Source: Ensifer adhaerens (GTDB lineage: Bacteria > Pseudomonadota > Alphaproteobacteria > Rhizobiales > Rhizobiaceae). Taken from it: 64,000 nt of DNA. The stretch's first letter is position 1, and the number at the start of each line of letters is the position of its first letter. Location: the NCBI RefSeq assembly GCF_013283195.1, contig NZ_JABEKT010000004.1, positions 394,452-458,451 of the forward strand, written 5' to 3'. A program made the position numbers and the translations under genes. Under the pieces are notes generated by a model. It had not been told where the DNA came from. It was given only the letters and a program-made list of their open reading frames with translations, and did not search any database. Below are positions 20,076 through 55,713 of the stretch, one piece after another.

Positions 20076-21254
20076 TCAATGCAGCGGCGTGGCGCTTTCG
20101 GGCTCACGCATCTGGAAACCGCCGATCGCCAGCTTTCCGTCACCGAACGGCAAAGCACGGCGCAGGCGAAGCTCGTCGTCGATCACGGTCTGCATGCCGG
20201 CCTTGAATTTCCTGACGCTGAACTGCGCCGTGTGCGCCCTGATGACGTCGGGGCGGAACGCGTCTTCCCGTGCCTCGAAGGCATAGATCGTCTTGATCAA
20301 AGCATCGACGCTCTGCTGTTCGAAAAGCATGCCCGTCAGATTGGGCACGACGGTCTCGAGCGCTCCACCGGCGCCAAAGGCGATGACCGGGCGGCCGCTT
20401 GCCATAGCTTCGACAGGCACGATGCCGAAGTCTTCCTCGCCGGGAAAAACCAGGGCGCGACAGCGGGCGAGCTTTTCCTTCAGCACGGCAAAGGGTGCGC
20501 GACCAAGGAACGTGACGGTCGGGCCGGCGATCCGCTTGAGCCTGGCGATATCCTGTTCCTTGCCGTCGCCGATCACGACCAGGTTCTTGCCCATTTTCGT
20601 GAAGGCTTCTACGGCCAGGTCGATCCGCTTGTAGGGAACGATCTGGCCGGCGCAGAGGTAAAAGTCCTCGATCTGGGTCGAGGGCGCAAAGTCCTCGGTG
20701 CTGACGGGCGGATAGACCACGGTTGCCGGGCGCCGATAGTATTTGCTGATGCGTGCTGCCACGTGATGCGAGTTGGCGACAAAACGGTCCACCCGCATGC
20801 TGGTGTTGACGTCCCAGGTCCGCAGCATCGGCGCCAGAACCGGCATCATCATCCGCGACAGGAGGCCAGCACTCGAGCGATAGGCGTGATAGTGATCCCA
20901 AAGGTAGCGCATGGGCGAGTGGCAATAGCAGATATGGGCTGCATGCGGCGGCGGGATGATCCCCTTCGCCGGTCCGGATTCGCTCGAAATGATCAGGTCG
21001 TAACCGCTGAGATCGAGACTTTCGAGCGCGAAGGGCATCAGCGGCAACAGCGATTGATAATGCCCGATGGCACCGGGAATGCGCTGCAGGAACGACGAAG
21101 TGACCTTGTGCTTCTTGATCGTGTCCGACACGCGGCCCGGATCATAAACCAAAGTGAAAATGTCGGCCTCGGGATAGAGATCGCATAGTGCCTCGATCAC
21201 CTTCTCCCCACCCCGCATCGATACCAGCCAATAATGAACGATTGCGACGCGCAT
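20076..21254 (-). CDS. Glycosyltransferase family 4 protein
   Basis: A 392-residue GT-B-fold retaining glycosyltransferase. The N-terminal domain starts VAIVHYWLVSMRGGEKVIE, the acceptor-binding glycine loop. The C-terminal nucleotide-sugar domain has FLGRAPFAVLKEKL and PGEEDFGIVPVEAMASGRPV, the E-x7-E motif. Its ribosome site is AGGGGAG at 21259-21265. It diverges from the ExoF-like gene and probably adds one sugar in repeat-unit assembly on the inner face of the membrane. Confidence 0.9.
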   Translation of the reverse strand: MRVAIVHYWLVSMRGGEKVIEALCDLYPEADIFTLVYDPGRVSDTIKKHKVTSSFLQRIPGAIGHYQSLLPLMPFALESLDLSGYDLIISSESGPAKGIIPPPHAAHICYCHSPMRYLWDHYHAYRSSAGLLSRMMMPVLAPMLRTWDVNTSMRVDRFVANSHHVAARISKYYRRPATVVYPPVSTEDFAPSTQIEDFYLCAGQIVPYKRIDLAVEAFTKMGKNLVVIGDGKEQDIARLKRIAGPTVTFLGRAPFAVLKEKLARCRALVFPGEEDFGIVPVEAMASGRPVIAFGAGGALETVVPNLTGMLFEQQSVDALIKTIYAFEAREDAFRPDVIRAHTAQFSVRKFKAGMQTVIDDELRLRRALPFGDGKLAIGGFQMREPESATPLH

Positions 21255-21584
21255 GGCGCTCCCCTACTGCAACGATCCTGCCGCAGCATGGGGCAGACGG
21301 ACCTCGCGTGCACAGCGCCAAGATCGGTCCGGCAGTGCATCCGAAGGAACGATCGTCCTACTCGAAAGGTTTAGGGGCGGTGCAGGCCGACCGGTGTTTA
21401 ACCATCGGCCGGGGCAACCCTATCCGATGGTGCCGCCGGTTTAGAATTGCTCCCCTAAAGGGATTAGCCGCGATTAGACCGCAGGGAATTTACCTCGAAC
21501 GTTTTGGGCCGACAATCAATCCGACGCGCCACGCCAAGCTGAACTGTCCAGCACCGCGGCGCGCAGGAACATCTGCGAGGCCCC
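21255..21584. promoter_or_regulatory. Divergent control region of the exopolysaccharide cluster
   Basis: 330 bases between two divergent polysaccharide genes. It holds TCCCCTAAAGGGATTAG at 21451-21467, which contains both an imperfect TCCC-GGGA dyad and a perfect CTAA-N5-TTAG inverted repeat, and a reversed TTTAGGGGC at 21370-21378. A related CCCCTTAG palindrome lies ahead of the NRPS operon (49843-49860). These are candidate operators for a shared regulator. Confidence 0.45.
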
Positions 21585-22910
21585 ATGCCCCATGCCGATC
21601 ACAGTCTTTCGTATCGCCTGTCGTGCCTTGGCCGTGCCTCGACTCTCTGTCTTGCGATAGGCTTAAGCGCTTTGGCTCCACTCCAGCAGGCGCAAGCCGA
21701 GCCAGTGTTCCGCCTGCAACCTCAAACGAGGGTCAAGGTCGCGATCGTCGAGTGGGTCGCCTCGACAGGAGAATACAAGGAATGGACGGCGCTCAACGGC
21801 GAATATGTCGTCTCGCCCGCCGGCACGATCTCGGTTCCGCTGGTCGGCGAAGTCAAGGCCAGGGATAGAACGCCCTCGGAACTGGCGGCCACCATCGCCG
21901 ATCTCCTGAAGGAGCGCACCGGCCTCAGCAAGGCGCCGGAGACATCCGTCGAAGTTGTCCGTTACCCGATGATCTACGTCACGGGGCTGGTCGATCGGCC
22001 GAGCGAACTCGAATTCCGGCCCGGCATGACAGTGATGCAGGCGGTGGCCATGGCCGGTGGACGCGAACGCCGCACGAACCCTGCCGGCGGCTACTCGGAC
22101 ATGGAGCAGATCCGCTACACCGGCGAATTGAACCGGATGGAACTCGAGATGATGCAGCTGGCCGCCCGTCGCGCCCGGCTGAGGGCCGAGTTCACCGACA
22201 GCGCCAAGATCGAATTTCCCCAGGCGCTCAAGGCTGCCGATGGCGCCGCCATCCAGCAGATCGTGCGCGACGAAAGCACGCTCTTCGACGCCCGGCTCGA
22301 GGCCATGCGCCGGCAACTCGATTCCCTTTCCGAGCTCGGCACGCTGCTCAAGAACGAAATCGACGTGCTCGATGAAAAGACGACAGTCCAGCAGCACCAG
22401 ATCGACATTTCCCAGGACGAACTCAAAGGCGTATCGAAACTGGTGAGTGACCAGACGGTGACGAAGTCGCGCCAGACGGCACTCGAGCGCATCGTCGCCG
22501 AGCTGCAGAGCGACAAGCTCGACCTTCAGGTCGCCGCCATGCGCGCCAAGCAGAAGCTGAGCGAAACCGAGCGCGACGCGGTGACCTTGCAGGGGCAGCG
22601 CCGCACGGAGGCCGGCCGCGACCTGCAGACGACGGAAGCCGCGATCGAGGATCTGAAGCTCAAACGAAGCACGACGCTGCAGCTGCTGCAGATCAACGGC
22701 GCCTCGCTCTCCCGCTTCGCCGACATGAAGGCGATGGACCTTGAGCCGCTGGAGTACTGGATCACCCATGGCGGTGGCACCGAACCGGCCGTGAAGGTCA
22801 CGGAAGCAACTCTGCTCGTGCCGGGCGACGTGCTCGACGTGCGCTCGGCGCTGACGGCAGCGCTGGACAAGAAACTTCTGACGTCGGTCGGCATAGAACA
22901 GTCCCAGTAG
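21585..22910 (+). CDS. Polysaccharide export protein, ExoF/Wza type with SLBB domain
   Basis: A 441-residue periplasmic/outer-membrane export component. A signal peptide ends near residue 38 (QQAQAE). The Poly_export domain contains GEYVVSPAGTISVPLVGEVKA; the following soluble ligand-binding segment has YVTGLVDRPSELEFRPGMTV. Residues about 180-370 are long charged helices, coiled-coil-like, as in S. meliloti ExoF rather than Wza. The next gene is ExoP-like, 46 bases on, the usual pairing. Confidence 0.9.
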   Translation: MPHADHSLSYRLSCLGRASTLCLAIGLSALAPLQQAQAEPVFRLQPQTRVKVAIVEWVASTGEYKEWTALNGEYVVSPAGTISVPLVGEVKARDRTPSELAATIADLLKERTGLSKAPETSVEVVRYPMIYVTGLVDRPSELEFRPGMTVMQAVAMAGGRERRTNPAGGYSDMEQIRYTGELNRMELEMMQLAARRARLRAEFTDSAKIEFPQALKAADGAAIQQIVRDESTLFDARLEAMRRQLDSLSELGTLLKNEIDVLDEKTTVQQHQIDISQDELKGVSKLVSDQTVTKSRQTALERIVAELQSDKLDLQVAAMRAKQKLSETERDAVTLQGQRRTEAGRDLQTTEAAIEDLKLKRSTTLQLLQINGASLSRFADMKAMDLEPLEYWITHGGGTEPAVKVTEATLLVPGDVLDVRSALTAALDKKLLTSVGIEQSQ

Positions 22911-22956: not shown

Positions 22957-25230
22957 ATGGTCGTGCATGACATCTCAAAAATCGTGATGGATGAGAATTT
23001 CGAGGCCAAGCGTTCGGCCGGCCAGGAGAGCATATCCTTCCGCGATGTTTCCGACTTCCTGCGGCGTCACCTCGTTCGTATCGGGATTTGTGGCCTGATC
23101 GGCCTTGCGCTCGGCGCGTTCTACATCCTCAACACGGCACCGACCTTTACTGCGACCGTCCGTCTGGTGATTGACCCGGAACAGGGGCGCATCGCATCGC
23201 AGGATGCCTCGACCGGAACGATCATCATCGAAGCGGCCGAGATCGCCAGCGAAGTCGAAATCGTCAAATCCGAAGCGATTGCCCGCGCCGTCATCGAACA
23301 GCTCGACCTGACCAACGACCCGGAGATCGTCGGCGGCGGCGTCTCGATCCGGGGCATGATCGGCTCGCTGTTCTCCGCAAGCACCAAGAACGCCGACAAT
23401 GATGCGGCCGACGACGAGTATCTGATGCGGCGCACGATGGCTGCGTTTCTTTCGCGTGTTACCGTGCGGCGCGTTGGCCAATCCTACGTGCTCGAGATCG
23501 GCTATTCGTCCACGGATCCACAGAAGGCGGCGAAAACGGCCAACGCCATCGCCGGCGCCTACATCCGCACGGGCATGAACGAGAGATCCGACGCCGCACG
23601 AAGTGGCGCCAAGTGGCTCGAAAGTCGCCTGATCGAAGTCGGCGCGCAGGCACGCGCGGCCGCCATGACTGTGGAAGAGTTTCGCGCCAAGAACGACATC
23701 ACGACGGTTGGCACCGCGTCGACGCTCGACCAGCAGCAGCTTTCCGAACTCAGCAGCCAGATGCTCGCAGCGCGCGCTGCGACGGCGGCGGATACGGCCA
23801 AGCTGATGACGCTGCAGCAGCTCATGTCGCAAGACACGATGATCGGCAGCGTCAACGACAGCCTCGACAATCCGCAAATCCAGAAGCTCAACGAAGAAAT
23901 GCGCCTGGCGAAAGCCAAGCTCGACAATCTCAAGACGCGATACGACAGCGGAAACCCCGCAATTACCGCCGCCGAGGCAGACATTGCGCGGCTCGATGCC
24001 TCTCTTCGCAACGAATTCCTGCGCATCGAACAGTTCTACAAGTCGAATGTCGAGATCGCCAAGACCCGCGAAAAGCTGCTCGAAAGCGAGCTTGCCAATC
24101 TGACCGCGACGGGTGCCGGCAAGAACGTTGCACGCGTCGAACTGTCCGAGATGGAAAGTCGCGCGACGACCTATCGCAACATGTACGAGGGTATTCTTCA
24201 GCAGCTCATCGGCGCGCTGCAAAAGCAGTCCTTTCCTCTCGGCAAGGCACGTATCGTGACGGCGGCAACCGCGCCCTTGGGAAAGACCTGGCCGAAGCCC
24301 TCGACGATCATGCCGTTCTCCCTGATGTTCGGATTGGCGACCGGCCTCATGTTGTCGGTGCTGCGTGACGGCCTCGACCGCCGCGTCAGCTCCAGCGAAC
24401 GCCTGCGCGCCGAACTCGGCATTACCTCGCTCGGCCACGTGCCGATGTTCAGAAGCAGCCCCCGCCCGCATCAGCCTCCAATCGCCTCCACGATGCTGCC
24501 GCTCAGATCGGTGCTGGACATGCCCTATTCGCGGTTCTCCGAGGCCTTGCGCGGCGTGAAGAATTCCGTCGATTCGGCTTTCCCCGCCAATGCATCGGCA
24601 GTCATCGGGGTGACCTCGGTCGGCCCCGGCGAAGGCAAGACCACGATCGCTGCCAACCTCGCCCAACTCTACATGAACGAAGGCACATCGGTCCTGCTGG
24701 TCGACGCGGATTTCATCGGCTCGCGCCTCAGCCGCGTCGCCACCGAGGACGGCGCGGGCTTCGGCATGGAGAGCCTACGGATCCTCGGCATTCCCGGCCA
24801 ATATTCCAGGCGCAGGTCGAGTGAGGGACAACAGCACGTCGAGGAATTCGACGGCAAGGCGGTGCGCTGCGTTCCGGTTCTGACCGTCGAACAGACGCGC
24901 AAGGCCGCGGTCGGACATCAACGCTACGGCCACCTGCCGGCGCTGAAATCGGAACTCGAACTGCTGAGACAACGCTACAAGGTGATCATCGTCGACATGT
25001 CCGGCTTCGAAGATTCAGCCGACACGCGCGTGATCTGCACCTATCTCGACGGCATCGTCGTGGTTCTCGGACAATCCGACAAGATGACTGTCGAACGGCT
25101 CGGCGAGGCCCTGTCGACATTCGGCAAATCGCGTGTCGCGTTGCTCGGTGTGATCTCCAACAGAAGCGACGGCCCTCGCCGGACCAACATTCGCTGGGAC
25201 CGAAAACAATGGCGCAAGTTCAAGAAATGA
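22957..25230 (+). CDS. ExoP-type polysaccharide co-polymerase / BY-kinase-like protein
   Basis: A 757-residue inner-membrane protein controlling chain length. Membrane segments lie near 43-60 and 450-470, with a long periplasmic coiled-coil region between (about 220-400). The cytoplasmic domain has Walker A GPGEGKTT at 555-562 and Walker A' LLVDADF at 580-586. It lacks the C-terminal tyrosine cluster of classical bacterial tyrosine kinases and ends in basic residues (WRKFKK), so autophosphorylation is doubtful. The gene overlaps the next by 22 bases. Confidence 0.9.
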   Translation: MVVHDISKIVMDENFEAKRSAGQESISFRDVSDFLRRHLVRIGICGLIGLALGAFYILNTAPTFTATVRLVIDPEQGRIASQDASTGTIIIEAAEIASEVEIVKSEAIARAVIEQLDLTNDPEIVGGGVSIRGMIGSLFSASTKNADNDAADDEYLMRRTMAAFLSRVTVRRVGQSYVLEIGYSSTDPQKAAKTANAIAGAYIRTGMNERSDAARSGAKWLESRLIEVGAQARAAAMTVEEFRAKNDITTVGTASTLDQQQLSELSSQMLAARAATAADTAKLMTLQQLMSQDTMIGSVNDSLDNPQIQKLNEEMRLAKAKLDNLKTRYDSGNPAITAAEADIARLDASLRNEFLRIEQFYKSNVEIAKTREKLLESELANLTATGAGKNVARVELSEMESRATTYRNMYEGILQQLIGALQKQSFPLGKARIVTAATAPLGKTWPKPSTIMPFSLMFGLATGLMLSVLRDGLDRRVSSSERLRAELGITSLGHVPMFRSSPRPHQPPIASTMLPLRSVLDMPYSRFSEALRGVKNSVDSAFPANASAVIGVTSVGPGEGKTTIAANLAQLYMNEGTSVLLVDADFIGSRLSRVATEDGAGFGMESLRILGIPGQYSRRRSSEGQQHVEEFDGKAVRCVPVLTVEQTRKAAVGHQRYGHLPALKSELELLRQRYKVIIVDMSGFEDSADTRVICTYLDGIVVVLGQSDKMTVERLGEALSTFGKSRVALLGVISNRSDGPRRTNIRWDRKQWRKFKK

Positions 25231-26147
25231 TGCCGGCAACGGGTAACCATCCCGCCGCTCGCCCGCTAACGGTCGCCATCGGCATACCGAGCTGCGGCCG
25301 CAGCGACATTCTCTCCGCTGTCCTGCCGCTCATCGCCCGGCAGTCCCGGCAACCGGACGCGATCTATGTCTGCCTGTCGTCGCCGGAGGATATGGACCCT
25401 CGCTGTGTCGAGGGGCTCGCCTGCCCTGTCACCGTGGTCCTGTCCGAACGTGGCCTCTGCCGCCAACGCAACCGGATACTGGCGGAAGTAAGCGCCGATA
25501 TCATTCTGTTCCTTGACGACGATTTCCTGATGGCTCCGTCCTATGTCAGCGAACTCGTGGCGCTGTTTGCCAGCCAGCCCGATGTCGCCATGTGCACCGG
25601 CACTGTCATCGCCGATGGCATCATCGGCCCCGGCATCGCAGTCGATGATGGCCTTGAGATGATCGAGGCCGGATTGTCTCGGCCGGATCTGCCGGTGACC
25701 TTCGCGCCGATCTACAGCGCCTACGGCTGCAACATGGCTGTAAGGACTGCCGCGATCCGGCGCTCGGGGCTGCGCTTCGACGAAAATCTGCCACTCTACG
25801 GCTGGCTCGAAGATGTCGATTTCAGCCGCCTGGTTGCCCAGCATGGGCGTGTCGTTCGGTCGAGCCGACTGCTGGGTGTCCACCTTGGAACGAAGAAAGC
25901 CCGCACCCCTGGCATCAAGTTCGGCTACTCGCAGATCGCCAACCCCATCTACCTGATGCGCAAGCACACGATGAGCATCCGTCACGCCACCGTCCAGATG
26001 GGGCGAAACCTGATCGCGAACATCGTCAAGGTCTGGAACCCGGAGCCTTGGGTCGATCGAAAAGGACGTCTGCGCGGCAATGCTCGCGCGGTCGTGGATC
26101 TGCTGACCGGTCGGCTCGCCCCGCAGAACGTCGAAAGGCTCGAGTAA
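25209..26147 (+). CDS. Glycosyltransferase family 2 protein
   Basis: A 312-residue GT-A inverting glycosyltransferase. TVAIGIPSCGRSDILSAVLP is the nucleotide-binding start and ILFLDDDFLMAPSYV carries the DxD metal motif; GWLEDVDFSRLVAQ is the late ED acid pair typical of the family. No transmembrane export segment is seen, so it works on the cytoplasmic face, adding a sugar to the lipid-linked repeat unit. It overlaps the ExoP-like gene by 22 bases, implying coupled translation. Confidence 0.9.
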   Translation: MAQVQEMMPATGNHPAARPLTVAIGIPSCGRSDILSAVLPLIARQSRQPDAIYVCLSSPEDMDPRCVEGLACPVTVVLSERGLCRQRNRILAEVSADIILFLDDDFLMAPSYVSELVALFASQPDVAMCTGTVIADGIIGPGIAVDDGLEMIEAGLSRPDLPVTFAPIYSAYGCNMAVRTAAIRRSGLRFDENLPLYGWLEDVDFSRLVAQHGRVVRSSRLLGVHLGTKKARTPGIKFGYSQIANPIYLMRKHTMSIRHATVQMGRNLIANIVKVWNPEPWVDRKGRLRGNARAVVDLLTGRLAPQNVERLE

Positions 26148-26151
26148 CATC

Positions 26152-27459
26152 ATGGCTTCTCTGCCGCCAGACCGCGTCGTCGTCATCAACGATCGCTCCA
26201 CCAGGGTCGGTGGCGCCACGAACCTCGCCATCCTGTCGGCTGAACTGCTTCAGCAGCGCGGTATACCGGTGACATTCTTTGCCGGCGACGGCGCGCCAGC
26301 CAACAAGCCGGCGGCCGATACGATCAATCTCGACGCCGTTCCCCTGATGGAGCGGCGGCGAAGCCACGCACTGCGTCTCGGCCTTTACGACCCGCCCGTC
26401 TATGAGAGACTGAGCGGGCTAATCTCCAGCCGCGACACGCCGTCGACGATCTACCATCTCCATGGCTGGTCGAAGATCCTGTCGCCGGCGATCTTTCGGG
26501 CACTCGCGCCCGTGCGGGATCGCGTCGTTCTCCACGCTCACGATTACTTCCTGGCCTGCCCCAACGGCGGCTTCGTCAATTTCCAGACCCATCGTGTCTG
26601 CGAGTTGAAGCCGATGTCGGGTCGTTGCCTGACGACTCAATGCGACAAACGCGGTCTGCACGAGAAGGCCTGGCGCACCGCGCGGCACATGCTGCGGGAG
26701 CAGTTCTTTCCAACCAAGCGAATGCCCGCAAACATCATCGTCGTGCACGAGAGGATGCGCGCTTATTTCGAGCGTGCCGGCATGGATGGCACCCGGATCG
26801 AAACGATCCGCAATCCAGTCCTTCCCTTTGTCGATACCGGGCTCCAGCCCTGGACCAACCGCAACTTCGTGTTCGTCGGCCGGTTGGAACCCGAAAAGGG
26901 CTTCGAGGATGCGGCCAAGGCGGCGACGCTTGCCGGGTTGCCGCTTCACTTCATCGGTGACGGTGCCGGGCGCGCGCTCATCGAAGCACGGTTTCCCGAT
27001 GCAACGGTTCACGGCTGGAAAACCAAGGACGAGATGCTGGATATTATTCGCAGCGCACGCGCCGTGGTGGTTTCCTCGCGTGTGCCGGAACCGTTCGGGC
27101 TTGCGGCGCTCGAAGCCGTTTCTTGCGGCATACCGGTCATCCTGCCGGACGCGGCATTGCTCGCCGACGAGATCGTCGCGCTGGGGTGTGGGCTCAAATT
27201 CCGGATTGCCGATGTCGAACATCTTGCAGCCGCGATGCAGTCTATCGCCACCGACGACGCATTGGTGCATCGGATGAGCGACAACTGCTTGAGAGAGGCA
27301 GCCAGGCTCGCGCATTCACCGGCAACCTGGGCGGACGAATTGATTGCTCTCTATGCGAGCGTGCTGCAACGCGCCAACGGGAGCCCGAGCGATGTCATGC
27401 GACGGCGCCTGGCAACAGTTGGGACCGCGCATGATCTGCATGACGGAGGTGTTCGATGA
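26152..27459 (+). CDS. Glycosyltransferase family 4 protein
   Basis: A 435-residue GT-B glycosyltransferase. NDRSTRVGGATNLAILSAEL is the N-terminal glycine loop; FVGRLEPEKGFEDAAKAATL starts the C-terminal domain; SRVPEPFGLAALEAVSCGIP is the E-x7-E donor site. It begins 4 bases after the GT2 stop. The stop overlaps by ATGA with a short open frame at 27456. Confidence 0.9.
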   Translation: MASLPPDRVVVINDRSTRVGGATNLAILSAELLQQRGIPVTFFAGDGAPANKPAADTINLDAVPLMERRRSHALRLGLYDPPVYERLSGLISSRDTPSTIYHLHGWSKILSPAIFRALAPVRDRVVLHAHDYFLACPNGGFVNFQTHRVCELKPMSGRCLTTQCDKRGLHEKAWRTARHMLREQFFPTKRMPANIIVVHERMRAYFERAGMDGTRIETIRNPVLPFVDTGLQPWTNRNFVFVGRLEPEKGFEDAAKAATLAGLPLHFIGDGAGRALIEARFPDATVHGWKTKDEMLDIIRSARAVVVSSRVPEPFGLAALEAVSCGIPVILPDAALLADEIVALGCGLKFRIADVEHLAAAMQSIATDDALVHRMSDNCLREAARLAHSPATWADELIALYASVLQRANGSPSDVMRRRLATVGTAHDLHDGGVR

Positions 27460-27683
27460 AACGGCATCGTTCGTCGCTGCAAACCATCGATCGGCAAGGG
27501 ACACGTTCATCTGGCGAAACCGGCGGGCATACGGCCCTTTCGCGATTAGCAGGTTTACCCGGCTGCGCATTAATGCTGCCCGGCGCGTACCTCCATTGGA
27601 CTAGGCCTTGCCCATCAGGATCGATTGTAAATCCGGGCGCCCACTGGCAGCCTGTTAAAGGCGAACGGTGTTGGGAGGGGTGA
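27456..27683 (+). CDS. Possible small translationally coupled ORF (doubtful)
   Basis: A 75-codon frame begins at an ATGA overlap with the GT4 stop and has the site GGAGGTG 5 bases upstream, and it closes just before the ExoY-like gene. The product (starting MKRHRSSLQTIDRQG) has an unusual composition, rich in Gly, Pro, Trp and Cys, and matches no family I know. A second frame (27440-27604) could equally be read. Translation signals are good, coding signal is poor. Confidence 0.25.
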   Translation: MKRHRSSLQTIDRQGTRSSGETGGHTALSRLAGLPGCALMLPGAYLHWTRPCPSGSIVNPGAHWQPVKGERCWEG

Positions 27684-27688
27684 GAGAT

Positions 27689-28366
27689 ATGCTGTCTGTT
27701 TCTGATGGCGCTGCACGTCAAGGACACACCGCGCGCGGAACCATCGCAGCACGACGCGGCAGCAGGTCCAAGCGATTGATCGACGTGACCGTATCGGTCC
27801 TGGCGCTCGTCTTCCTTGCGCCGGCACTCGCGTTGATAGCGATAGCCCTCGTCATCGTCGATGGCCGACCGATCATTTTCCGACAAGCCCGCGTCGGTGC
27901 GCAGGGCAAAATGTTCGAGTGCCTCAAGTTCAGAACCATGCGCCGTGATGCGGCGGAAAGGCTTGCCGAACTTCTGGCCAACGACCCCGAACGAAACCGG
28001 GAGTGGACTGAAAAACGCAAACTCGTCGGCGACCCGCGCGTCCATTGGCTCGGCAAGATCCTCAGGATGACCTGTCTCGATGAGTTGCCGCAGTTCTACA
28101 ACGTGCTGCGCGGCGACATGAGCCTTGTCGGACCTCGCCCGATCTCGCTGGAAGAAACGGAAAAATACGGCCCGAACCTGCACTATTACACAAGCCTGAA
28201 GCCCGGCATCACCGGCATGTGGCAGGTCCGAAGACGGCCGGAGACCACCTATGACGAGCGGGTTCAGTTCGACATCGACTACTATCAGTCCCGGTCGATC
28301 TATCTCGACATCGTGATCATCGTAAAAACGGTGGGCGTCGTCCTCTTTGCAACAAACGAGATCTGA
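27689..28366 (+). CDS. Undecaprenyl-phosphate sugar-1-phosphate transferase, ExoY type
   Basis: A 225-residue initiating transferase that loads the first sugar phosphate onto the lipid carrier. One membrane helix (VTVSVLALVFLAPALALIAI) is followed by the family blocks IIFRQARVGAQGKMFECLKF, MTCLDELPQFYNVLRGDMSL, VGPRP and SLKPGITGMWQV. GGGAGGGG before the ATG at 27689 decides this start. It has the short ExoY architecture, without the four-helix WbaP-like front part. Confidence 0.92.
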   Translation: MLSVSDGAARQGHTARGTIAARRGSRSKRLIDVTVSVLALVFLAPALALIAIALVIVDGRPIIFRQARVGAQGKMFECLKFRTMRRDAAERLAELLANDPERNREWTEKRKLVGDPRVHWLGKILRMTCLDELPQFYNVLRGDMSLVGPRPISLEETEKYGPNLHYYTSLKPGITGMWQVRRRPETTYDERVQFDIDYYQSRSIYLDIVIIVKTVGVVLFATNEI

Positions 28367-47717: not shown

Positions 47718-49660
47718 GAGGCGCTCCTGCGGAAGTGGGACATGTTCTTTTTCTGGCGCGCCGCACGTTCGGCCGCCGTCATCGTGCGGGCACTGGCCGA
47801 CGACTTTCCGTCAAGAAAACCAGCCAGTTCGCGAACGGTCGTATGCTTGAACAGCGCGACCACATCGATCGGTCGGGCGAGCTTTACCTCCAGCGCCGCA
47901 TGCACCCGCATCAGCTGCAGCGAAGTCCCGCCGAAATCGAAGAAGTTGCGATCGAGCTCCACGGCCGGAAGACCGAGGACGCTGCACCAGAGTTCTTGCA
48001 AGACCGCCTCGGTTCGGCTGGCGACCGGTGCGTTTTCGGTGGGCAATGCATCCACCGGCATCGGCAACCTGGCACGGTCGACCTTGCCCGACTGGTGCAG
48101 CGGCAAATGATCGAGCACGATCACTGCACTCGGGATCATGTAGGCGGGAAGACTGTTGCGCAGCCTTTCCATCACACCGCGGATCAGGTCTGCATCGTCT
48201 GTCCGCGTGCCCTCGCGCGGGCACAGGTAGCCGACGATCCGCTTGTGGGACTGGTCCAGATGCTGGCAGATGACGACACCGTCGGCGAGCCGTGGATCAC
48301 GCCGCAAGGCGGCTTCGATCTCGTCGAGCTCGATGCGTTTGCCGTTCAACTTAATCTGCCGGTCCCGCCGGCCGCGGAAGAGCAGGATGCCGTCGTTGCC
48401 GAGCACGGATAGATCGCCCGTCAGATAGCCGCGCACGTCGCCCTCATCGGTGCGGATCGTCACGAACCGCTCCGCCGTCAGTTCGGGACGCCGGTAGTAA
48501 CCGATGGCGACCCCCTCGCCGGTCAGAACAAGCTCCCCCTCCATGCCGCGCCCGACCGGGCGATGGTCTTCATCGACAATCAATATTCCGGTGTGACTGA
48601 CGGCACGGCCGATCGGCACATCCTTGCCGTCGAAGCCGGCGGGAATGTCGAAGGCGGTGGCGATAACGGTGATTTCCGTCGGGCCGTAGCCGTTGGTCAG
48701 GCGGCACTCCGGATGCGCCTTCTGAAACCGTTTGACATGTTCGGCCGAAGCGACTTCGCCGCCGAACATCAGGTGTCGCAGCGTCGGCAGTTCGCCGCAG
48801 GAGAAATCGGCGAGCAGATTGAACAGACCCGTGGTGATCAGGGAGACGGTGACGCCGTTGTCGCGGATGACGTCCCGCAGCCGGCCGATCGAGAAATTTC
48901 CGTCCGGCAAACCGGCAATGGTGCCGCCATTCGTCAACGTGCCCCAGACCTCGAAGGTGGCGATGTCGAACGCGATGGTGGCCGCGTGCAGCACGACATC
49001 GCCGCTGCCGAGCTCGACATAGTTCTGATCGAGCGCGAGCCGCGTGATGCCGCGATGCGGAATGGCGACGCCCTTCGGTCGGCCGGTCGAACCCGACGTG
49101 TACATGACGTAGGCCATGTCGCCACCGACGACAGCCACGGGTTCGAATGGCTTCGCCTGAGCGCGCGAGAGGTCGGCAACGAGGGCATGGAGGTCAGCGA
49201 TCGTGCCTTTGACGCTCGGAACCTGAAGCATCGTGACAAGCGTGCAGGTATCGACAAAGACCACCTTCGGCTCGCAGTCGCCGATGACGTAGTCGAGATG
49301 GTCGACGGGAAAGGTCGTGTCCAGCGGCAGATAGGCAGCGCCCGCCTTTAGGATGGCCAGCATGGCGACGATCGTCTCAAGAGACCGCGGAACGAAGAGG
49401 CAGACGATGTCGCCCTTCGTCACGCCTCGGTCGATCAGGTAAGCGGCGAGCGCATCCGACAGAGTGTCAAGTTCGCCATAGGTGATCGAGTGATCGTCGA
49501 AGATGATTGCCGTTGCCTGCGGAGCCGCCTGAGCCTGCTGATGAACGATGGCATGAACCGAACGCTCCGGATCGTAGGACGCGGTTTCCTGCGAGCGACC
49601 TGTCGCGCGCACGGGCATCCCCCCCGAGCCGTCGCCTCCGGAAAATCGGAACTCAGCCAT
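47714..49660 (-). CDS. NRPS starter protein: adenylation domain plus PCP
   Basis: 648 residues. Adenylation about 30-535: MYTSGSTGRPKGVAIPH, FDIATFEVW, NGYGPTE, YLTGDLSV, A10 motif SGKVDR (K526). PCP about 550-620 with FGGTSL (S580). No condensation domain precedes it, so it loads the first acid. The specificity residues as I align them are D-I-F-L-M-G-G-V-I-K (D232, I233, F236, L274, M298, G300, G324, V332, I333, K526); I cannot assign a substrate. It overlaps the PKS start by ATGA. AGGAGGCG 4 bases before the ATG is a strong ribosome site. Confidence 0.92.
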   Translation of the reverse strand: MAEFRFSGGDGSGGMPVRATGRSQETASYDPERSVHAIVHQQAQAAPQATAIIFDDHSITYGELDTLSDALAAYLIDRGVTKGDIVCLFVPRSLETIVAMLAILKAGAAYLPLDTTFPVDHLDYVIGDCEPKVVFVDTCTLVTMLQVPSVKGTIADLHALVADLSRAQAKPFEPVAVVGGDMAYVMYTSGSTGRPKGVAIPHRGITRLALDQNYVELGSGDVVLHAATIAFDIATFEVWGTLTNGGTIAGLPDGNFSIGRLRDVIRDNGVTVSLITTGLFNLLADFSCGELPTLRHLMFGGEVASAEHVKRFQKAHPECRLTNGYGPTEITVIATAFDIPAGFDGKDVPIGRAVSHTGILIVDEDHRPVGRGMEGELVLTGEGVAIGYYRRPELTAERFVTIRTDEGDVRGYLTGDLSVLGNDGILLFRGRRDRQIKLNGKRIELDEIEAALRRDPRLADGVVICQHLDQSHKRIVGYLCPREGTRTDDADLIRGVMERLRNSLPAYMIPSAVIVLDHLPLHQSGKVDRARLPMPVDALPTENAPVASRTEAVLQELWCSVLGLPAVELDRNFFDFGGTSLQLMRVHAALEVKLARPIDVVALFKHTTVRELAGFLDGKSSASARTMTAAERAARQKKNMSHFRRSAS

Positions 49661-50111: not shown

Positions 50112-50969
50112 CTATGGAAGGTCGTAGGCCCTGATGTAATCGATGAACATGTGGGAGGGATCATGCGCCTGGTCCGCCGTCTTTTCGACCAGGGCGAGGT
50201 TGAGCAGCACATACATCGGCTGCCGGTGCTCGGGTCGTGTCTCCGCCTTCCATACGAGCTTCCGGTCGAAATACATCCGGATGAACTCGGAATCGATCTT
50301 CACCCCATAGGTGTGAAAGTCCTGCGGATCGGCGTCGCGAAACACCTCGATCCGACTGAACTGGGAATCGTTCTTGTCGTCGCGATGCCAGACATGGATG
50401 ACCGAGGAGTAACCGTCCGGCTTGTCGCCGTAAAATTCCATCACGTCTATTTCCGCCGTCGACTTCGAGCGATCCTTGCCGATCAACCAGAAGGCGGGCC
50501 ATACCCCGGGACCGACCGGCAGTTGGGCGCGCATTTCGAAATAGCCGTATTGCTGGGCAAAGCCGTTGCCCTTCGGATCCACCGAAGCGAGCAGGCCGGA
50601 CTGCCAGTCTCCCTCCGGATCACGCTTTGCCTCGATCCTCAGGATGCCGTTCTCGGTCTTGAAAGGTGTGCGCTCGCCGGGATTGGCGAAGCGGGCACCT
50701 CCGAAATCCCCGGACCACGGCGTGTGGGCGATCCAGCGGGTTCCAGGCCCCCAGGCCGATACGTCCAGCTCATCAAAGTTCTCGTCGAAGGTCAGACGCA
50801 TATCGTCGACTGGAAGCGCATCGCCCGTGTCCCCGCCCGTGTATCCGTCAGCCGAGGCGCCAGATGCGAGCATCAAGATCCACAGACAACCGATGACAGG
50901 CCGGACGAAGTGCCGAACTGAAGAGCGGCGGGCCAGGTAACGGCGCGGTTCGCGAACAGATGGGGTCAT
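50112..50969 (-). CDS. Glycoside hydrolase family 16 protein (ExoK-like endo-beta-glucanase)
   Basis: 285 residues with an N-terminal signal segment (VIGCLWILMLASGASA, cut near residue 40). The catalytic motif E-I-D-V-M-E is at 173-178, with the nucleophile and acid/base Glu residues in place; YGYFEMRAQLPVGPGVWPAF and the late aromatic strands fit the jelly-roll fold of GH16. ExoK-like enzymes in rhizobial clusters cut nascent beta-glucan-type exopolysaccharide to lower its length. This implies a beta-linked glucan-containing polymer here. Confidence 0.92.
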   Translation of the reverse strand: MTPSVREPRRYLARRSSVRHFVRPVIGCLWILMLASGASADGYTGGDTGDALPVDDMRLTFDENFDELDVSAWGPGTRWIAHTPWSGDFGGARFANPGERTPFKTENGILRIEAKRDPEGDWQSGLLASVDPKGNGFAQQYGYFEMRAQLPVGPGVWPAFWLIGKDRSKSTAEIDVMEFYGDKPDGYSSVIHVWHRDDKNDSQFSRIEVFRDADPQDFHTYGVKIDSEFIRMYFDRKLVWKAETRPEHRQPMYVLLNLALVEKTADQAHDPSHMFIDYIRAYDLP

Positions 50970-51108
50970 GGCGGGAAACTAGCGCGGCAGCCCGCCCGGG
51001 GTCCATTACCGATTCAGGCCGGCACGCTATGCGAAAGGCTTAGCCGCAGGCGTAAATACGCGGCATGCCCCCTTTGATAGGATCGTTTCATGAACTGGAA
51101 ATGGTGGC
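50970..51108. promoter_or_regulatory. Divergent promoter region between GH16 and polymerase genes
   Basis: 139 bases between divergent starts. It must hold both promoters. I see no clear dyad; a GCCCCCTTTGATAGG stretch at 51065-51079 is loosely like the CCCCTTAG sites but is not scored as one. Confidence 0.4.
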
Positions 51109-52554
51109 ATGAGCTTTGAACTGATCGGCTTCGTTACCGTACTTGTGGGGTTGGGCGTGCTCATGGCGCCCATCCATTGGGCTTTGACGTTCATGGTCGT
51201 TTCCACCACGCTCGGCTCGGCGGCGGCAATCAACCTTCCAGCCCTTGGCGGCGCGTCCATCCTTGTTCCCAATGTCTTCCTGCTGTTTTTCGGCGTCAGG
51301 ATCCTGATGGCTTATGGCGAAGGTCCTGTATTGGCAGCCTTCGTACCGGCCGGCTCCGGCTTCTGGCTGATGGTGCTCACGCTTTTCGGCGTGCTGACCG
51401 CGATCCTGTCGCCTCGCCTGTTCCAGGGCGCTGTCGATGTGATGACGGTCGAACGATCGGTCGGCGCGAGAAGTTTCATAGCGCTGTCGCCGCTCAGGTC
51501 TTCATCCAACAACATAACGCAGGCCGTCTACGCCCTCGGGGGACTTGCCTGTTTCGGGTTCTGCCACGCCTATCTGCGTCGCCCGGGGGCTCCGTCGCAC
51601 CTCGTCAGCGCCATCCTCATTGCTGCAGCGGTTAATCTCGCCTTCGCGGCCGCCGACATCGTCACCTACTTCTCCGGTACAGAGTATCTTCTGAGCGTGG
51701 TGCGAACGGCCAACTACGCTCTTCTGACCGCAGCGGAAAAAGGCGGACTGAAACGGATTTCCGGATCCTTCCCCGAGGCATCGGCATTTGCCGATTACAC
51801 CCTGGTCCTGTTCGCCGCGACGGCGAGCCTCTGGCTCGACCGGATCCGCTCGCGGCTGACGGCAGCGTTGGCGCTTGCTTCACTCGCCGGCCTGGTGTTT
51901 TCGACGTCTGCGACAGCGCTGCTCGGGTTGGCCGTCGTCTTCCCATTTCTCTGGATACGGTCGATCATCACGGTCTTCCAACGGAAAAACCCCGGACGCC
52001 CGGTGTTTCTCGCGGCCCTTTTCCTAATCGTGCCACTCGTCCTGCTTACGGTCGTCAACCTGTTTCCCGAGATGGTGTCGACCGTCTACGACTTTCTCGA
52101 TGAGATGCTCCTGTCAAAGGTCGACAGCCAGTCCGGCCGCGAGCGCGCAATGTGGAACGCAGCCGCCTATGAGGCCTTCGTCAACACTTTCGGCATGGGC
52201 GCGGGCCTGGGGAGCGCGCGCGCCTCCAGCTATCTGTTGGTTCTCCTGTCGAATGTCGGTGTTCTGGGGCTCGTCATCTTCTGCATCTTTGTCGCAACCA
52301 TCCTTTGCGCTCGCGTGCCGTTGGCCGCTCAGCGGCGCGTGGAAGGTCTTGCAGCGCTAAGGGCAGCGAAAGCCGGATTTGTCGCTGCGCTCAGCACGTC
52401 TCTGGTTTCGGGCACTGTCTATGACCTGGGCCTGCTTTTCTACATCCTCGCCGGTAGCGTGTCGGCGCTGACATGCCTGCAAATCAGCGATGCGGCAGCA
52501 CGCCGACCACCACTTGTCGGTGCGGCTAGCCCGCGCCGCATAGGAGGCTCCTGA
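51109..52554 (+). CDS. O-antigen ligase/polymerase-like protein (Wzy/ExoQ type)
   Basis: A 481-residue membrane protein with about 11 hydrophobic segments and a large periplasmic loop near residues 320-370 (SKVDSQSGRERAMWNAAAYE, followed by FGMGAGLGSARASSY), the position of the Wzy_C block with conserved Arg and Gly residues. It should join repeat units on the periplasmic side, together with the ExoP-like co-polymerase and the Wzx flippase encoded 22 kb away. Its stop overlaps the next start by one base (TGATG). Confidence 0.82.
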   Translation: MSFELIGFVTVLVGLGVLMAPIHWALTFMVVSTTLGSAAAINLPALGGASILVPNVFLLFFGVRILMAYGEGPVLAAFVPAGSGFWLMVLTLFGVLTAILSPRLFQGAVDVMTVERSVGARSFIALSPLRSSSNNITQAVYALGGLACFGFCHAYLRRPGAPSHLVSAILIAAAVNLAFAAADIVTYFSGTEYLLSVVRTANYALLTAAEKGGLKRISGSFPEASAFADYTLVLFAATASLWLDRIRSRLTAALALASLAGLVFSTSATALLGLAVVFPFLWIRSIITVFQRKNPGRPVFLAALFLIVPLVLLTVVNLFPEMVSTVYDFLDEMLLSKVDSQSGRERAMWNAAAYEAFVNTFGMGAGLGSARASSYLLVLLSNVGVLGLVIFCIFVATILCARVPLAAQRRVEGLAALRAAKAGFVAALSTSLVSGTVYDLGLLFYILAGSVSALTCLQISDAAARRPPLVGAASPRRIGGS

Positions 52555-53837
52555 TGAAGGTCGTCGTCTTCAACGTCAAGTACAGCGAGAACCTCGGTGA
52601 CGGTATTCTTGCGCAGTGCCTTGAGACCGCGCTCGCGCGGGGGACAAAAGGGCTGGAGGTCAAGACGATCGATCTCGCCGGCAGGACAGCGTTCGGCACC
52701 GGCGGTGGCGGGCGTCGCCGGCAATTGCTGAAGGTGCTACAGGCCCTGCCCGCGTTCGCGCGCCGGCGGGTTGTCAAGCAGGCACTCGCCCCGACACTGC
52801 GCCGATTGCAGGTCGAATGGCAAAGAGAGATCGAGGCAGCCGATGCCGTCGTTATCGGCGGGGGAAACCTGTTTCAGGACGATGACCTGAACTTCCCGCT
52901 GAAGGTGGGAGCCGCGCTCGAATGTGTCAAACGTAGCGGCAAGCCGCTCGCGATCTATGCCGTCGGCACCAGCCGGGACTGGTCGCCACAGGCAAGACAG
53001 CTCTTCGGCAGGCTCGAGGAAAGCCAACTGGTCCATGTCTCGGTTCGCGATACCATCGCCAGCCGCAACTGGTTCGGCCATTTTCCAGCCGGGCCGCACG
53101 CCCGGATACTGCCCGACCCCGGATTGCTCGTTCGGGAGATCGTTTCGAGCCACGCGCTCGAACCACTGAAGGCTGAGGACCGGGCGATCGGCATCTGTGT
53201 CACCGACCCGCTGATCCTGCGGCGTCATTCGGGCCACGGATCGCAAGGAATTCCGTTTCGGCATATCGAAGATTATCATCGATTGCTGAGCATGATGCTC
53301 GAAGCCGGATACAGGATCTGTCTCTTCACCAATGGCGCACAGGAAGACCAGGCCTTTGCGCGACGCATTCTCAGCGGAGACGGTCTCGCGGGGCAGATTG
53401 ACAGCGGCAATCTCTATCTGGCCCCCCGCCCGAAAACGCCCGAGGAACTGATCCACATTATCGCATCGACGCAGGTCATCCTGGCGCATCGTCTGCACGC
53501 CTGTATCGCCGCCTATTCCCTCGGCGTACCGCAGGTCGGTCTCGGTTGGGATCCGAAAGTCGACGGCTTTTTCCAGTTCGTCGGCCGGTCAGAGTATTTT
53601 GCCGGCGATGCCGACGTCTCAGCACAACACGTCGCCTCCTTGCTCGAGGAGGCAGCCCGCAAGGGCATCGATCCCGAGACCCACGCCTCCATCCTCGATC
53701 AGGCCCGCGACGGCATCGCGTTCTTGCGAGAATGCCTGGAAATGCACCAGAACCGCGGCGCGAACCGGAAGACCCAGCCGGCGGTTGTGCCGAACGAACA
53801 AGGCTTGGCCGGCTACGCCTGGTCGAACGGCCTCTGA
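52554..53837 (+). CDS. Polysaccharide pyruvyl transferase family protein
   Basis: 427 residues. VVFNVKYSENLGDGILAQCL at the start, VVIGGGNLFQDDD with the glycine loop, and AHRLHACIAAYSLGVPQVGL with the R-x-H-x-x-I-x-x motif near the end are family hallmarks. These enzymes transfer pyruvate from phosphoenolpyruvate onto a sugar as a ketal, giving the polymer negative charge (as ExoV does in succinoglycan). Translationally coupled to the polymerase gene. The C-terminal 30 residues are low-complexity polar. Confidence 0.9.
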   Translation: MKVVVFNVKYSENLGDGILAQCLETALARGTKGLEVKTIDLAGRTAFGTGGGGRRRQLLKVLQALPAFARRRVVKQALAPTLRRLQVEWQREIEAADAVVIGGGNLFQDDDLNFPLKVGAALECVKRSGKPLAIYAVGTSRDWSPQARQLFGRLEESQLVHVSVRDTIASRNWFGHFPAGPHARILPDPGLLVREIVSSHALEPLKAEDRAIGICVTDPLILRRHSGHGSQGIPFRHIEDYHRLLSMMLEAGYRICLFTNGAQEDQAFARRILSGDGLAGQIDSGNLYLAPRPKTPEELIHIIASTQVILAHRLHACIAAYSLGVPQVGLGWDPKVDGFFQFVGRSEYFAGDADVSAQHVASLLEEAARKGIDPETHASILDQARDGIAFLRECLEMHQNRGANRKTQPAVVPNEQGLAGYAWSNGL

Positions 53838-54058
53838 CGGTTGCGGGCTACCTGATCCCTTGCACAAAGCAATTGGCTTCTCCAACACCTAAATTCCAAG
53901 CTTTTCAGCTCTTTACCGTTTGCCCCACCCGGCCGGATTAAGCTGATATCGATGTGGATTCCCACAATTACTAATCATCTTGGGTAATATTCCTAACCAC
54001 CGGTTGTTTGCTATATACTTAAGTACAATCGAAAAGACCGAAGAGAGAGTGCGCCTTT
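53838..54058 (+). promoter_or_regulatory. Upstream region of the Crp/Fnr-type regulator
   Basis: 220 bases. The right half is AT-rich and holds a perfect 10-base palindrome TACTTAAGTA at 54016-54025 within CTATATACTTAAGTAC, 34 bases before the ATG and overlapping the likely -10 region. It is a candidate operator or autoregulatory site. Confidence 0.4.
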
Positions 54059-54775
54059 ATGGTGGGGCAACTTGGGGCATTTATAGGGTCGCAACAGCGC
54101 GGTGAACCGTCGAGTTTCGACACGAACCAACACAGATCGGAACTCAACGTTGCGCGAAAGCGGGTGTTCCCGGCCGGCTCCATTTTGTTCGAGCCAGAGG
54201 GGAGGTCATGCGTTCTGTTCTTCATCTCCGGCTGGAGTGTCAGTCGCAAGATTCTGGCGAACGGCACGCGGATCGTCGTGGAATTCATGCTGCGCGGAGA
54301 CATGGTCTGGACCTTGTCTTCCGAGTTGACGCAAGAAACCATCCAGGCCCTCTCGGACGTGACCGTCTATGAATTTGCCGTGCCTCCCGGCGCCTGTGGC
54401 CCCAATCTTTCGACGAGGATCCAACAGAATTTCGTGCACGAGATGCTCAAGCGCCAAGTGCGAATGACCGAGCGGCTGGCAAACATCGCGCGCCGCGATG
54501 CGCTGGAGCGCACAGGCCATCTGCTGCTCGAACTGGCGGTGCGAGCCGGCAAACCGAGCAGATCGGGTTTTGACGGTTTCGAATGCCCCCTGACGCAGTC
54601 AGACATCGGCGATGCCGTCGGGCTATCGTCCGTACACATCAACCGCGTTTTGAAGGAGATGAGGTTGAAGGGGTTGTTATCCTTCAGGAATGGCATCGTC
54701 GAGTTTCTCGATCGCCGACGACTGGCCGAATTGGTTGATTTCGATCCCGGCTATCTTCGCACGAATCTCGACTGA
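54059..54775 (+). CDS. Crp/Fnr-family transcriptional regulator
   Basis: 238 residues. The N-terminal cNMP-binding-like barrel is seen in FPAGSILFEPEGRSCVLFFI and RIVVEFMLRGDMVW; a long dimer helix follows (LKRQVRMTERLANIARRDAL), then the Crp-type winged helix LTQSDIGDAVGLSSVHINRV with LKEMRLKGLLSF. The N-terminal cysteine set of Fnr oxygen sensors is absent. It is the first of two regulators at the right end of the exopolysaccharide/NRPS cluster and may control it. Confidence 0.9.
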   Translation: MVGQLGAFIGSQQRGEPSSFDTNQHRSELNVARKRVFPAGSILFEPEGRSCVLFFISGWSVSRKILANGTRIVVEFMLRGDMVWTLSSELTQETIQALSDVTVYEFAVPPGACGPNLSTRIQQNFVHEMLKRQVRMTERLANIARRDALERTGHLLLELAVRAGKPSRSGFDGFECPLTQSDIGDAVGLSSVHINRVLKEMRLKGLLSFRNGIVEFLDRRRLAELVDFDPGYLRTNLD

Positions 54776-54945
54776 TTGATTGCGAGTACATTAACCTATG
54801 TTAATGCAGAGCAGAAATATATGTGATCTGATTGGAAATATATAACAACAAAATCATGAGAGGAACCCGAAGGTATATTTGCACTTATACTTGTATCTAG
54901 AATATTTTACACCTGACAAAATAAGAATAAAAAGGAGAAAATTCA
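54776..54945 (+). promoter_or_regulatory. AT-rich leader with perfect CATTAAC-N4-GTTAATG dyad
   Basis: 170 bases, much richer in A and T than the rest of the window. A perfect inverted repeat of 7 bases per arm lies at 54789-54806 (spacer CTAT). The strong site AAAAGGAGAAA precedes the ATG at 54946. Such AT-rich leaders in rhizobia are typical targets of silencing or MucR/Ros-type regulators, and the dyad could be an autoregulatory LuxR-type box. Confidence 0.55.
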
Positions 54946-55713
54946 ATGGATATTCGTACAGCAACAATTGCGAGAAACTCCACGACGCGACCGACATCCT
55001 TCCCAAGCGCACTGGAACAATCCCTCCCCCAAGGCTTGAGCGGTTCGGACATGACGGATCAGGAAGAGGATTTCGACTACATCCTGCTCATTGACCCGCG
55101 CGCGCTCGACCGGGAATGCCTGTCGAAAAGTCTGACGGGCTACGATCCCGGACTGACGATCGTTACCGTCGGATCCTTTGACGAGTGGCGCAGCCGAAAA
55201 TTGCAGACCGACCCCTCTGCCGTGCTTCTGATCGTCGGTGGCGGCAAAGTGGGCGACCTTGCAGTCTGCGAAAAAATCGAAACGCTGGTTGAGAAGTTCA
55301 AATACAGCCCGGTGATCGTGGTTGCCGAAACGGACGAACTCGGCCAGATCCTCAAAGCGCTGGAATGTGGTGCCCGTGGCTACATTCCAAGCAATGTCGG
55401 GATCAATGTTGCAGCCGAAGCGATCGCACTTGCGCGCGCCGGCGGCGTCTTCGTTCCGGCGAGCAGCATCCTGACGATGAGGGAGGCCATCAACTCGGTC
55501 GTGAATGGCGCCCGATGCTCAGACAGCCTGTTCACGCCGCGGGAAATCGAGGTTGCCGAAGCCTTGCGCCGTGGAAAGGCAAACAAGATCATCGCCTACG
55601 AGATGGATCTGTGTGAAAGCACAGTGAAGGTCCACATCAGAAACATCATGAAAAAGCTGAACGCGACCAACCGTACCGAGGTCGCCTACAAGATCCGCGA
55701 GTTCATGAAGTAG
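54946..55713 (+). CDS. LuxR/FixJ-family response-regulator-like protein without phosphoacceptor Asp
   Basis: 255 residues. Residues about 43-170 have the receiver fold (YILLIDPRALDRECLSKSL; SPVIVVAETDELGQILKALE; GARGYIPSN), but the strand that should end in the phosphorylated Asp reads AVLLIVGGGK (92-101), so no acceptor is seen. Residues about 193-255 are the LuxR helix-turn-helix (LFTPREIEVAEALRRGKANK; ESTVKVHIRNIMKKLNATNR). It is probably controlled by amount or by another ligand rather than by a kinase. It is the likely regulator of the neighbouring cluster. Confidence 0.88.
   Translation: MDIRTATIARNSTTRPTSFPSALEQSLPQGLSGSDMTDQEEDFDYILLIDPRALDRECLSKSLTGYDPGLTIVTVGSFDEWRSRKLQTDPSAVLLIVGGGKVGDLAVCEKIETLVEKFKYSPVIVVAETDELGQILKALECGARGYIPSNVGINVAAEAIALARAGGVFVPASSILTMREAINSVVNGARCSDSLFTPREIEVAEALRRGKANKIIAYEMDLCESTVKVHIRNIMKKLNATNRTEVAYKIREFMK

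Follow-up and report, generated by a model that had tools for sequence, protein, structure and literature searches.

An NRPS/PKS assembly line within an exopolysaccharide gene cluster of Ensifer adhaerens and its alphaproteobacterial relatives, with a putative role in decorating the polymer

Why should a peptide-making assembly line lie inside a gene cluster for an exported polysaccharide? The question is raised by a 64,000-nucleotide stretch of the 7.07-Mb genome of Ensifer adhaerens (contig NZ_JABEKT010000004.1, positions 394,452 to 458,451; hereafter, the window), in which a Wzx/Wzy-type exopolysaccharide (EPS) cluster encloses a three-protein nonribosomal peptide synthetase/polyketide synthase (NRPS/PKS) line with its own 4'-phosphopantetheinyl transferase (PPTase). 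We find that the assembly-line genes stand beside the genes of one exported polymer in dozens of bacteria from soil, roots, and the sea; the nearest cluster relatives are Ensifer/Sinorhizobium. Based on gene content and predicted enzymology, we think it fairly probable that the NRPS/PKS line belongs to the polysaccharide pathway and that a 3,4-diaminoacyl-glycine is attached to the lipid-linked repeat unit, to leave the cell along with the polymer, the covalent attachment and its acceptor being what we infer.

The initiating transferase, flippase, co-polymerase, and outer-membrane export protein of a Wzx/Wzy-dependent pathway are all present in the window. To the left of the assembly line lie genes for a GT4 glycosyltransferase that is a well-conserved polymer marker (GT4a, 20076..21254, minus strand; PF00534) and, on the plus strand, an ExoF-type outer-membrane export protein (21585..22910; PF02563 [Poly_export] and SLBB), an ExoP-type chain-length co-polymerase (22957..25230; Wzz, CbiA [P-loop], and GNVR), a GT2 glycosyltransferase (25209..26147; PF00535), a second GT4 (GT4b, 26152..27459; PF00534), an ExoY-type initiating sugar-phosphate transferase (27668..28366; PF02397 [Bac_transf], with TIGR03022 at 2e-79, under the cut-off), and a Wzx flippase (28778..30328; PF13440 [Polysacc_synt_3]). 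To the right is a polysaccharide pyruvyl transferase gene (52554..53837, plus strand; PF04230 [PS_pyruv_trans]). A first-pass annotation, made from the letters alone, had named these genes, and Pfam matches each at the place given. It had also put a GH16 glycanase and a Wzy polymerase on the right. The glycanase is there, but on the minus strand, which is the NRPS strand (50112..50969; PDB match to ULam111 at 3.7e-18, homologues in L007 and L008 annotated as GH16); a plus-strand open reading frame (ORF) at the same site has no Pfam match. The probable Wzy (51109..52554, plus strand) is supported by position, hydrophobicity judged by eye, and conservation; as Pfam and NCBIfam searches gave no family match, its assignment is indirect.

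Is this arrangement peculiar to one strain? Using the third assembly-line protein, NRPS3, as the marker for relatives, we obtained matches at E <= 1e-60 in 20 of 394 Rhizobiaceae genomes; 17 are clear (at least 621 bits, source genome included) and 3 arise via a generic condensation (C) domain only. Polymer genes adjoin the NRPS in all 16 of the other Rhizobiaceae relatives in this sample. For a second set, one genome per species was scanned and the best 80 loci were taken, with extra flanks added for 17. Six polymer markers were scored (ExoF, ExoP, ExoY, Wzx, Wzy, and GT4a): at least two are present in 74 of these loci and at least one in 76, including L147 (17.1 kb), which has one. The four loci without a marker are fragments of 8.5 to 15.2 kb. 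In L087, the other locus that falls short of two markers, the NRPS is adjoined by Wzy, pyruvyl transferase, and GH16 genes, with GT4a on a separate contig. The best 80 loci come from Ensifer/Sinorhizobium, Rhizobium, Ciceribacter, Chelativorans, Nitratireductor, Pseudaminobacter, Stappia, Consotaella, Tianweitania, and others, and include many Rhodobacterales and one Hyphomonadaceae. Sinorhizobium americanum, Rhizobium leucaenae, and Loktanella salsilacus are among the species with the cluster. A third sample comprised 390 genomes of the Rhodobacterales, the order of G795 (an Oceanicola); 22 carry NRPS3 at E <= 1e-120. For 20 of these, about 19 kb was taken on either side where the contig permitted, and at least three polymer genes surround the NRPS in 19; the remaining two (L140 and L154) both have polymer genes. 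The sets overlap, as 5 of the 20 Rhodobacterales and 13 of the 16 Rhizobiaceae are also in the 80-locus set. Between the bacterial orders the order of the genes is reshuffled and the core set retained, with GT4a 50 to 57% identical in three Rhodobacterales plasmid loci.

Polymer genes do not accompany NRPS genes in general. Around unrelated NRPS genes, identified by generic C-domain matches, profile hidden Markov models (HMMs) of ten polymer-side genes matched none of 13 control stretches from 12 genomes (one contig being only 22 kb), and a PPTase was present in four. These HMMs were trained on NRPS-linked loci and are thus biased toward positives; they are not blind, however, because they detected polymer genes in the divergent G670, G791, and L012 loci. 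G670 had been chosen as an EPS-free negative control after a first tblastn search, a choice overturned by wider flanks, Pfam, and the HMMs, and it was taken out of the control set after the fact. Its surroundings proved to be a polymer cluster of XrtA-like type that encodes Bac_transf, Wzx, Wzy_C, and glycosyltransferases and has a kinase-like ORF (the match to TIGR03015, the XrtA-associated ATPase, is 240 bits against a cut-off of 324). The union of NRPS and polymer genes persists with quite different polymer machinery in G670 and G791.

Two further loci lie at the edge of the family. On a plasmid of Aliiroseovarius sp. M344 (L012, 20022-30311), a single 3,429-amino-acid protein with the order A-PCP-KS-AT-ACP-AMT-C-A-PCP-TE (domains are spelled out below) and a Ser-type thioesterase has a PPTase of its own and sits amid ExoY, Wzx, and capsule genes. 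We ruled it out as a close relative, since its thioesterase has Ser and the GPTE regions differ; at most it offers a parallel, in which the same architecture may have joined a polymer independently. On a plasmid of Variovorax sp. RA8 (L013, 17808-43154), a more distant NRPS2 relative has three TIGR04325 methyltransferase genes nearby, two of them just downstream, and the polymer-side HMMs match nothing else in 49 kb. The TIGR04325 family, represented in the window at 30375..31196 (plus strand; above the cut-off), may for this reason be tied to the NRPS product and not to the sugar.

What would the assembly line make? Its genes are read from the minus strand. NRPS1 (47714..49660) is a loading module with an adenylation (A) domain and a peptidyl carrier protein (PCP), and its A-domain code is DIFLMGGVI. 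NRPS2 (39630..47717) has the order ketosynthase (KS), acyltransferase (AT), acyl carrier protein (ACP), aminotransferase (AMT), C, A, and PCP. NRPS3 (36829..39633) has C (HQxxxDG), PCP, and thioesterase (TE). Adjacent genes overlap by 4 bp in both cases. Pfam supports the KS-AT-ACP-AMT-C-A-PCP architecture and the dedicated PPTase (34497..35297, plus strand; PF01648), as the first-pass annotation had proposed, and window NRPS2 has no Pfam match to KR, DH, or ER. Over up to 106 aligned rows, the NRPS2 motifs are largely kept (KS Cys, AT GHSVGE/SHAFHS, AMT Lys, C HHxxxDG, and carrier Ser), with SHAFHS, which we take to indicate a malonyl-type AT, in 106 of 106. The second A domain (A2) has a glycine-type pocket, DILQLGMIW in the window or a near variant, in all 99 readable rows of the 106. 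The starter pocket varies: 39 codes occur in 103 rows; many Rhizobiaceae have aliphatic-looking ones, and among the Rhodobacterales the code changes with almost every row. Code positions and specificities follow rules that we assume to hold; the codes were read from alignments in which some genomes appear twice and divergent rows are rough. Fused NRPS1-NRPS2 proteins are among the rows surveyed, and in two of the loci (L148 = G198) no in-frame loading module was seen upstream of the KS.

A beta-aminoacyl-glycine had been predicted from the sequence, and the AMT, the malonyl-type AT, and the glycine-type A2 agree with it. An amino-acid-type A domain also activates the starter, and we therefore refine the prediction to a 3,4-diaminoacyl-glycine, i.e., starter amino acid plus malonyl plus amination, then glycine. 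A bare 3,4-diaminobutanoyl-glycyl group would add C6H11N3O2 (157.09 Da) per unit plus the starter side chain, so that the predicted added mass is 199.13 with a valine starter or 213.15 with leucine; a second glycine would raise it by 57.02. Hybrid NRPS/PKS lines of the microcystin/iturin type, with an aminotransferase domain, have the same KS-AT-ACP-AMT-C-A-PCP order; their products are free peptides, whereas here there are an A-PCP loading module, two or three building blocks, and polymer genes all around.

NRPS3 is the odd member. It lacks the A-domain core, a correction to the first-pass annotation: Pfam finds C, AMP-binding_C, PCP, and TE only. The same loss is seen in 103 of 104 rows, with the carrier serine present in all. 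The protein departs from the rule that an elongation module has an A domain of its own. The only row with a complete third A domain is G670, with the pocket DILQLGMIW. Since that locus lies in a polymer cluster, the ancestor probably had three full modules and already stood beside a polymer, the third A core being lost later. Both carriers may be loaded by A2, whose specificity is the same. The TE nucleophile is a cysteine (GxC) in 103 of the 104 rows. Of the 101 complete rows, which leave out three fragments, 75 have a C-terminal TE histidine (GWH-type), with the nucleophile motif GLCVNG in 73, GLCVAG in one, and GWCVGG in one. TE identity to the window is 38 to 39% in Stappia and 16 to 25% in rows from Hyphomonadaceae, Rhodobacterales, Consotaella, and Tianweitania, a spread that would suit a changed acceptor side.

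The TE model (pLDDT 90) is an alpha/beta-hydrolase at the C terminus of the line, and its best Foldseek match is the TE of mycobacterial Pks13, which occupies the same C-terminal assembly-line position; many TEs score alike, and that of SulM is among the matches. Pks13 has a serine nucleophile and a lipid product, whereas here we find a cysteine, a predicted diamino-peptide, and a putative sugar acceptor in place of trehalose. The Pks13 TE joins the assembly-line product to trehalose (PMC9900942), a precedent for TE-mediated ligation to a sugar. Cysteine nucleophiles are described for the NRPS thioesterases of SulM and ObiF1 (PMC11298585), which form a beta-lactam or beta-lactone. Nearly all rows here read G-x-C-V-[NH]-G and lack the Gln-Cys-Asn motif of SulM.

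Are the two halves inherited together? GT4a at 560 bits or more and NRPS3 at 700 bits or more, thresholds picked after viewing the data, coincide in 15 of the 394 Rhizobiaceae genomes, with neither alone in any. The 15 best GT4a matches (at least 562 bits) are all in NRPS3 genomes; in the other two NRPS3 genomes, G052 and G198, the polymer genes are more diverged. Pairwise protein distances of NRPS2 and six polymer-side genes (GINT, introduced below, being counted) correlate across 15 Rhizobiaceae with r of 0.91 to 0.98. Given rpoB distance, the partial r is 0.78 to 0.93, a level reached in 0 of 2,000 permutations; among the polymer-side genes themselves it is 0.62 to 0.90. Co-divergence shows joint inheritance, not chemistry, and linkage on one segment contributes to it. 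In the GT4a tree, the Rhizobiaceae-type NRPS-linked copies cluster with support of 76/80.

How would an assembly line serve such a pathway? NRPS1 would load a starter amino acid that depends on the lineage; NRPS2 would add malonyl, aminate the beta-keto group to give the 3,4-diaminoacyl chain, and then add glycine. The PCP of NRPS3 would hold the chain, and the Cys-type TE would pass it to a sugar, at an amino or a hydroxyl group, either in the undecaprenyl-linked repeat or on a nucleotide precursor. In Rhizobiaceae, a likely acceptor is the amino sugar that a DegT-family aminotransferase (33326..34507, plus strand; PF01041) would make. Its nearest solved structures are mostly sugar aminotransferases, the best PDB match being 8-amino-3,8-dideoxy-octulosonate transaminase (5k8b, 2.8e-61), with perosamine synthetases among the next. 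Wzx would then flip the unit, and Wzy, ExoP, and ExoF would polymerize and export the decorated polymer, so that no separate exporter would be needed. Because pyruvate would join a cationic group on the same polymer, the product would be zwitterionic. The interleaving of the two gene sets also speaks for a single pathway: the DegT and PPTase genes overlap by 11 bp, and a GINT-type gene follows NRPS3 on one strand.

Several observations weigh against this interpretation. Of the next tier of GT4a matches (437 to 543 bits), found in 24 genomes, none has NRPS3; in the ten of these that were inspected, the polymer genes are present and the NRPS is absent, and four have a GINT-like gene. The NRPS is therefore an add-on and not part of every such polymer. 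The expectation that the halves are always kept together thus stands in one direction, NRPS genes being nearly always beside polymer genes, and fails in the other: the polymer family occurs without the NRPS, whereas NRPS loci that lack the polymer are hardly found. In the GT4a tree, the Rhodobacterales NRPS-linked copies fall outside both the NRPS-linked and the NRPS-less Rhizobiaceae copies, and the tree gives no support to a shared ancestry of NRPS-linked GT4a across orders. NRPS genes without EPS genes, which the first-pass annotation would have taken as evidence against its proposal had they been frequent, are clear in one of the 20 Rhodobacterales. This genome, G1149 (L272 and L273), keeps NRPS1 to NRPS3, the PPTase, and the TIGR04325 methyltransferase, with the GT4a homologue on another contig; among ten flanking ORFs, Pfam finds one glycosyltransferase-like gene and mainly unrelated genes. 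No DegT, GMC, or GH16 orthologues were seen in the tabulated Rhodobacterales loci, nor is a dedicated transferase common to all members. In NRPS3, the second His of the C3 motif is Gln in 89 rows, Arg in 1, and His in 14 of the 104, and the C-terminal TE histidine is absent in 26 of the 101 complete rows. All 26 read GxCVHG, with a histidine two residues past the cysteine, a complementary pattern. Transfer by module 3 is uncertain on account of these lost residues. Lastly, our view of exporter conservation rests on homologues of the RND, HlyD, and ABC proteins of the window, MFS and MATE families not having been searched across relatives.

The exporter survey bears on the most serious alternative. 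It had been claimed that the polysaccharide machinery is the only export route at this locus. An RND transporter (56805-61141) and an ABC transporter (12553-14328) in fact flank the cluster. The RND pump is not conserved: homologues occur in 3 of 22 wide loci (the close kin L006 and G270, and a 25% match in L010) and in one of 20 Rhodobacterales, and we rejected it as the product exporter. ABC ATPase matches are scattered, at about 30 to 50% identity. The annotated tables of L007 and L008 list no exporter within the cluster. A free diamino-peptide, acting in the same biofilm matrix as a signal, cross-linker, metal binder, or matrix cation, with co-regulation keeping the genes together, would be the normal outcome of a TE, as such domains usually release free products. 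It would also suit G1149, in which the NRPS lies apart from the GT4a homologue, and the adjoining regulators, a Crp/Fnr type (54059..54775, plus strand; PF13545) and a LuxR type (54946..55713, plus strand; PF00196), with homologues in 11 and 13 of 16 relatives, respectively. We nevertheless regard a free product as unlikely, given the non-conserved RND pump, the absence of an exporter from those tables, the overlap of the PPTase and sugar aminotransferase genes, and a union that holds even where the polymer machinery is quite different (G670 and G791).

A product placed at one chain end, as primer, cap, or anchor, would call for few molecules per chain and no acceptor in the repeat unit, which on reasoning alone suits a low-throughput line. 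The RkpA PKS-like protein of the rhizobial K-antigen, for which a lipid role has been proposed, is loosely comparable. We consider such a terminal group improbable, as an ExoY-type transferase already begins the chain and the predicted product, being polar and cationic, does not resemble a lipid. Two unrelated systems brought together by chance or by hitch-hiking on a genomic island, the alternative that the first-pass annotation had allowed for, would fit the several plasmid-borne copies of the cluster and its patchy spread (it is absent from six of the eight same-genus genomes listed, the source genome being among the eight). Co-occurrence in two orders despite shuffled gene order, the 0 of 13 controls, and the strong co-divergence make this very hard to credit.

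We hold more tentatively to a general form of the pathway interpretation, in which a widespread alphaproteobacterial class uses a Cys-type TE to ligate a cationic 3,4-diaminoacyl-glycine to every repeat before flipping, giving a zwitterionic exopolymer whose side group is retuned by the starter A domain while the aminated core and glycine stay fixed. The known substituents of rhizobial EPS are acetyl, succinyl, and pyruvyl. Succinoglycan (exo) Wzx/Wzy clusters share ExoF, ExoP, ExoY, Wzx, glycosyltransferases, and pyruvyl transferase with the locus described here, to which, unlike them, an assembly line belongs. RkpA is likewise a multidomain acyl-building enzyme in a surface-polysaccharide locus, but it is fatty-acid-synthase-like and has no NRPS; we liken it by description only. 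Our search of a largely open-access literature found no description of an NRPS/PKS joined to a polysaccharide cluster. The available portion of a report on R. tropici genomes (PMC3557214) does not contain "polyketide," "peptide synthetase," or "non-ribosomal," and that of a report on Rhizobium 11515TR, which carries the cluster, makes a general mention only (PMC6256449). Each half is of a known kind; as far as the searched literature goes, neither the conserved union nor its implied product has been described before. If the interpretation is correct, a programmable peptide-making line feeds a polysaccharide pathway, and NRPS/PKS modules set surface-polymer chemistry. This would account for a conserved "orphan" NRPS/PKS family of rhizobia and marine Rhodobacterales, lead us to expect exopolymers that are cationic or zwitterionic, and open a way to designed polysaccharides. 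The NRPS-less homologous clusters nG266, nG311, nG063, and nG212 (L160-L167), with GT4a, ExoY, Wzx, and a GINT-like gene, form a natural comparison group for the undecorated polymer.

The last gene on the NRPS strand encodes a GINT1_N-family protein (35218..36804; PF24793, 7.6e-40) and begins 24 bp past NRPS3, in keeping with the first-pass call that a GINT1-like protein closes the operon. The family occurs in eight Rhodobacterales loci as well as in the window, and in polymer clusters both with and without the NRPS. We therefore rejected it as a marker of the NRPS half and place it on the polymer side. Plant GINT1, which shares the Pfam GINT1_N region, has a GT64 catalytic domain; in the window protein, Pfam at E <= 0.001 finds GINT1_N only and no GT64. 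The model (pLDDT 89) instead combines an N-terminal formyltransferase-like fold, assigned from the Foldseek rows, with a C-terminal five-bladed propeller, residues 271 to 528 matching GH130/GH43-type propellers.

The TIGR04325 methyltransferase, the DegT aminotransferase, and a GMC oxidoreductase (31326..33050, minus strand; PF05199/PF00732) are gene calls beyond the first-pass annotation; 14 of 16 relatives have a GMC oxidoreductase. Rfam and tRNA scans across the window gave no matches, and a sigma-70 promoter scan of 49500-51300 gave no promoter-like site. To the left of the cluster (9445-18530) lie genes for three luciferase-like monooxygenases, two family-3 binding proteins, an ABC transporter, and an M20 peptidase, which probably form an operon for uptake and catabolism unrelated to the cluster. 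Elsewhere, curli-type csgF, csgG, and csgH genes lie near the cluster in Rhizobium CCGE531 (L007, 2742-5083), and a CsgG/HfaB gene lies near it in Loktanella (L010, 1-204), hinting at shared biofilm regions.

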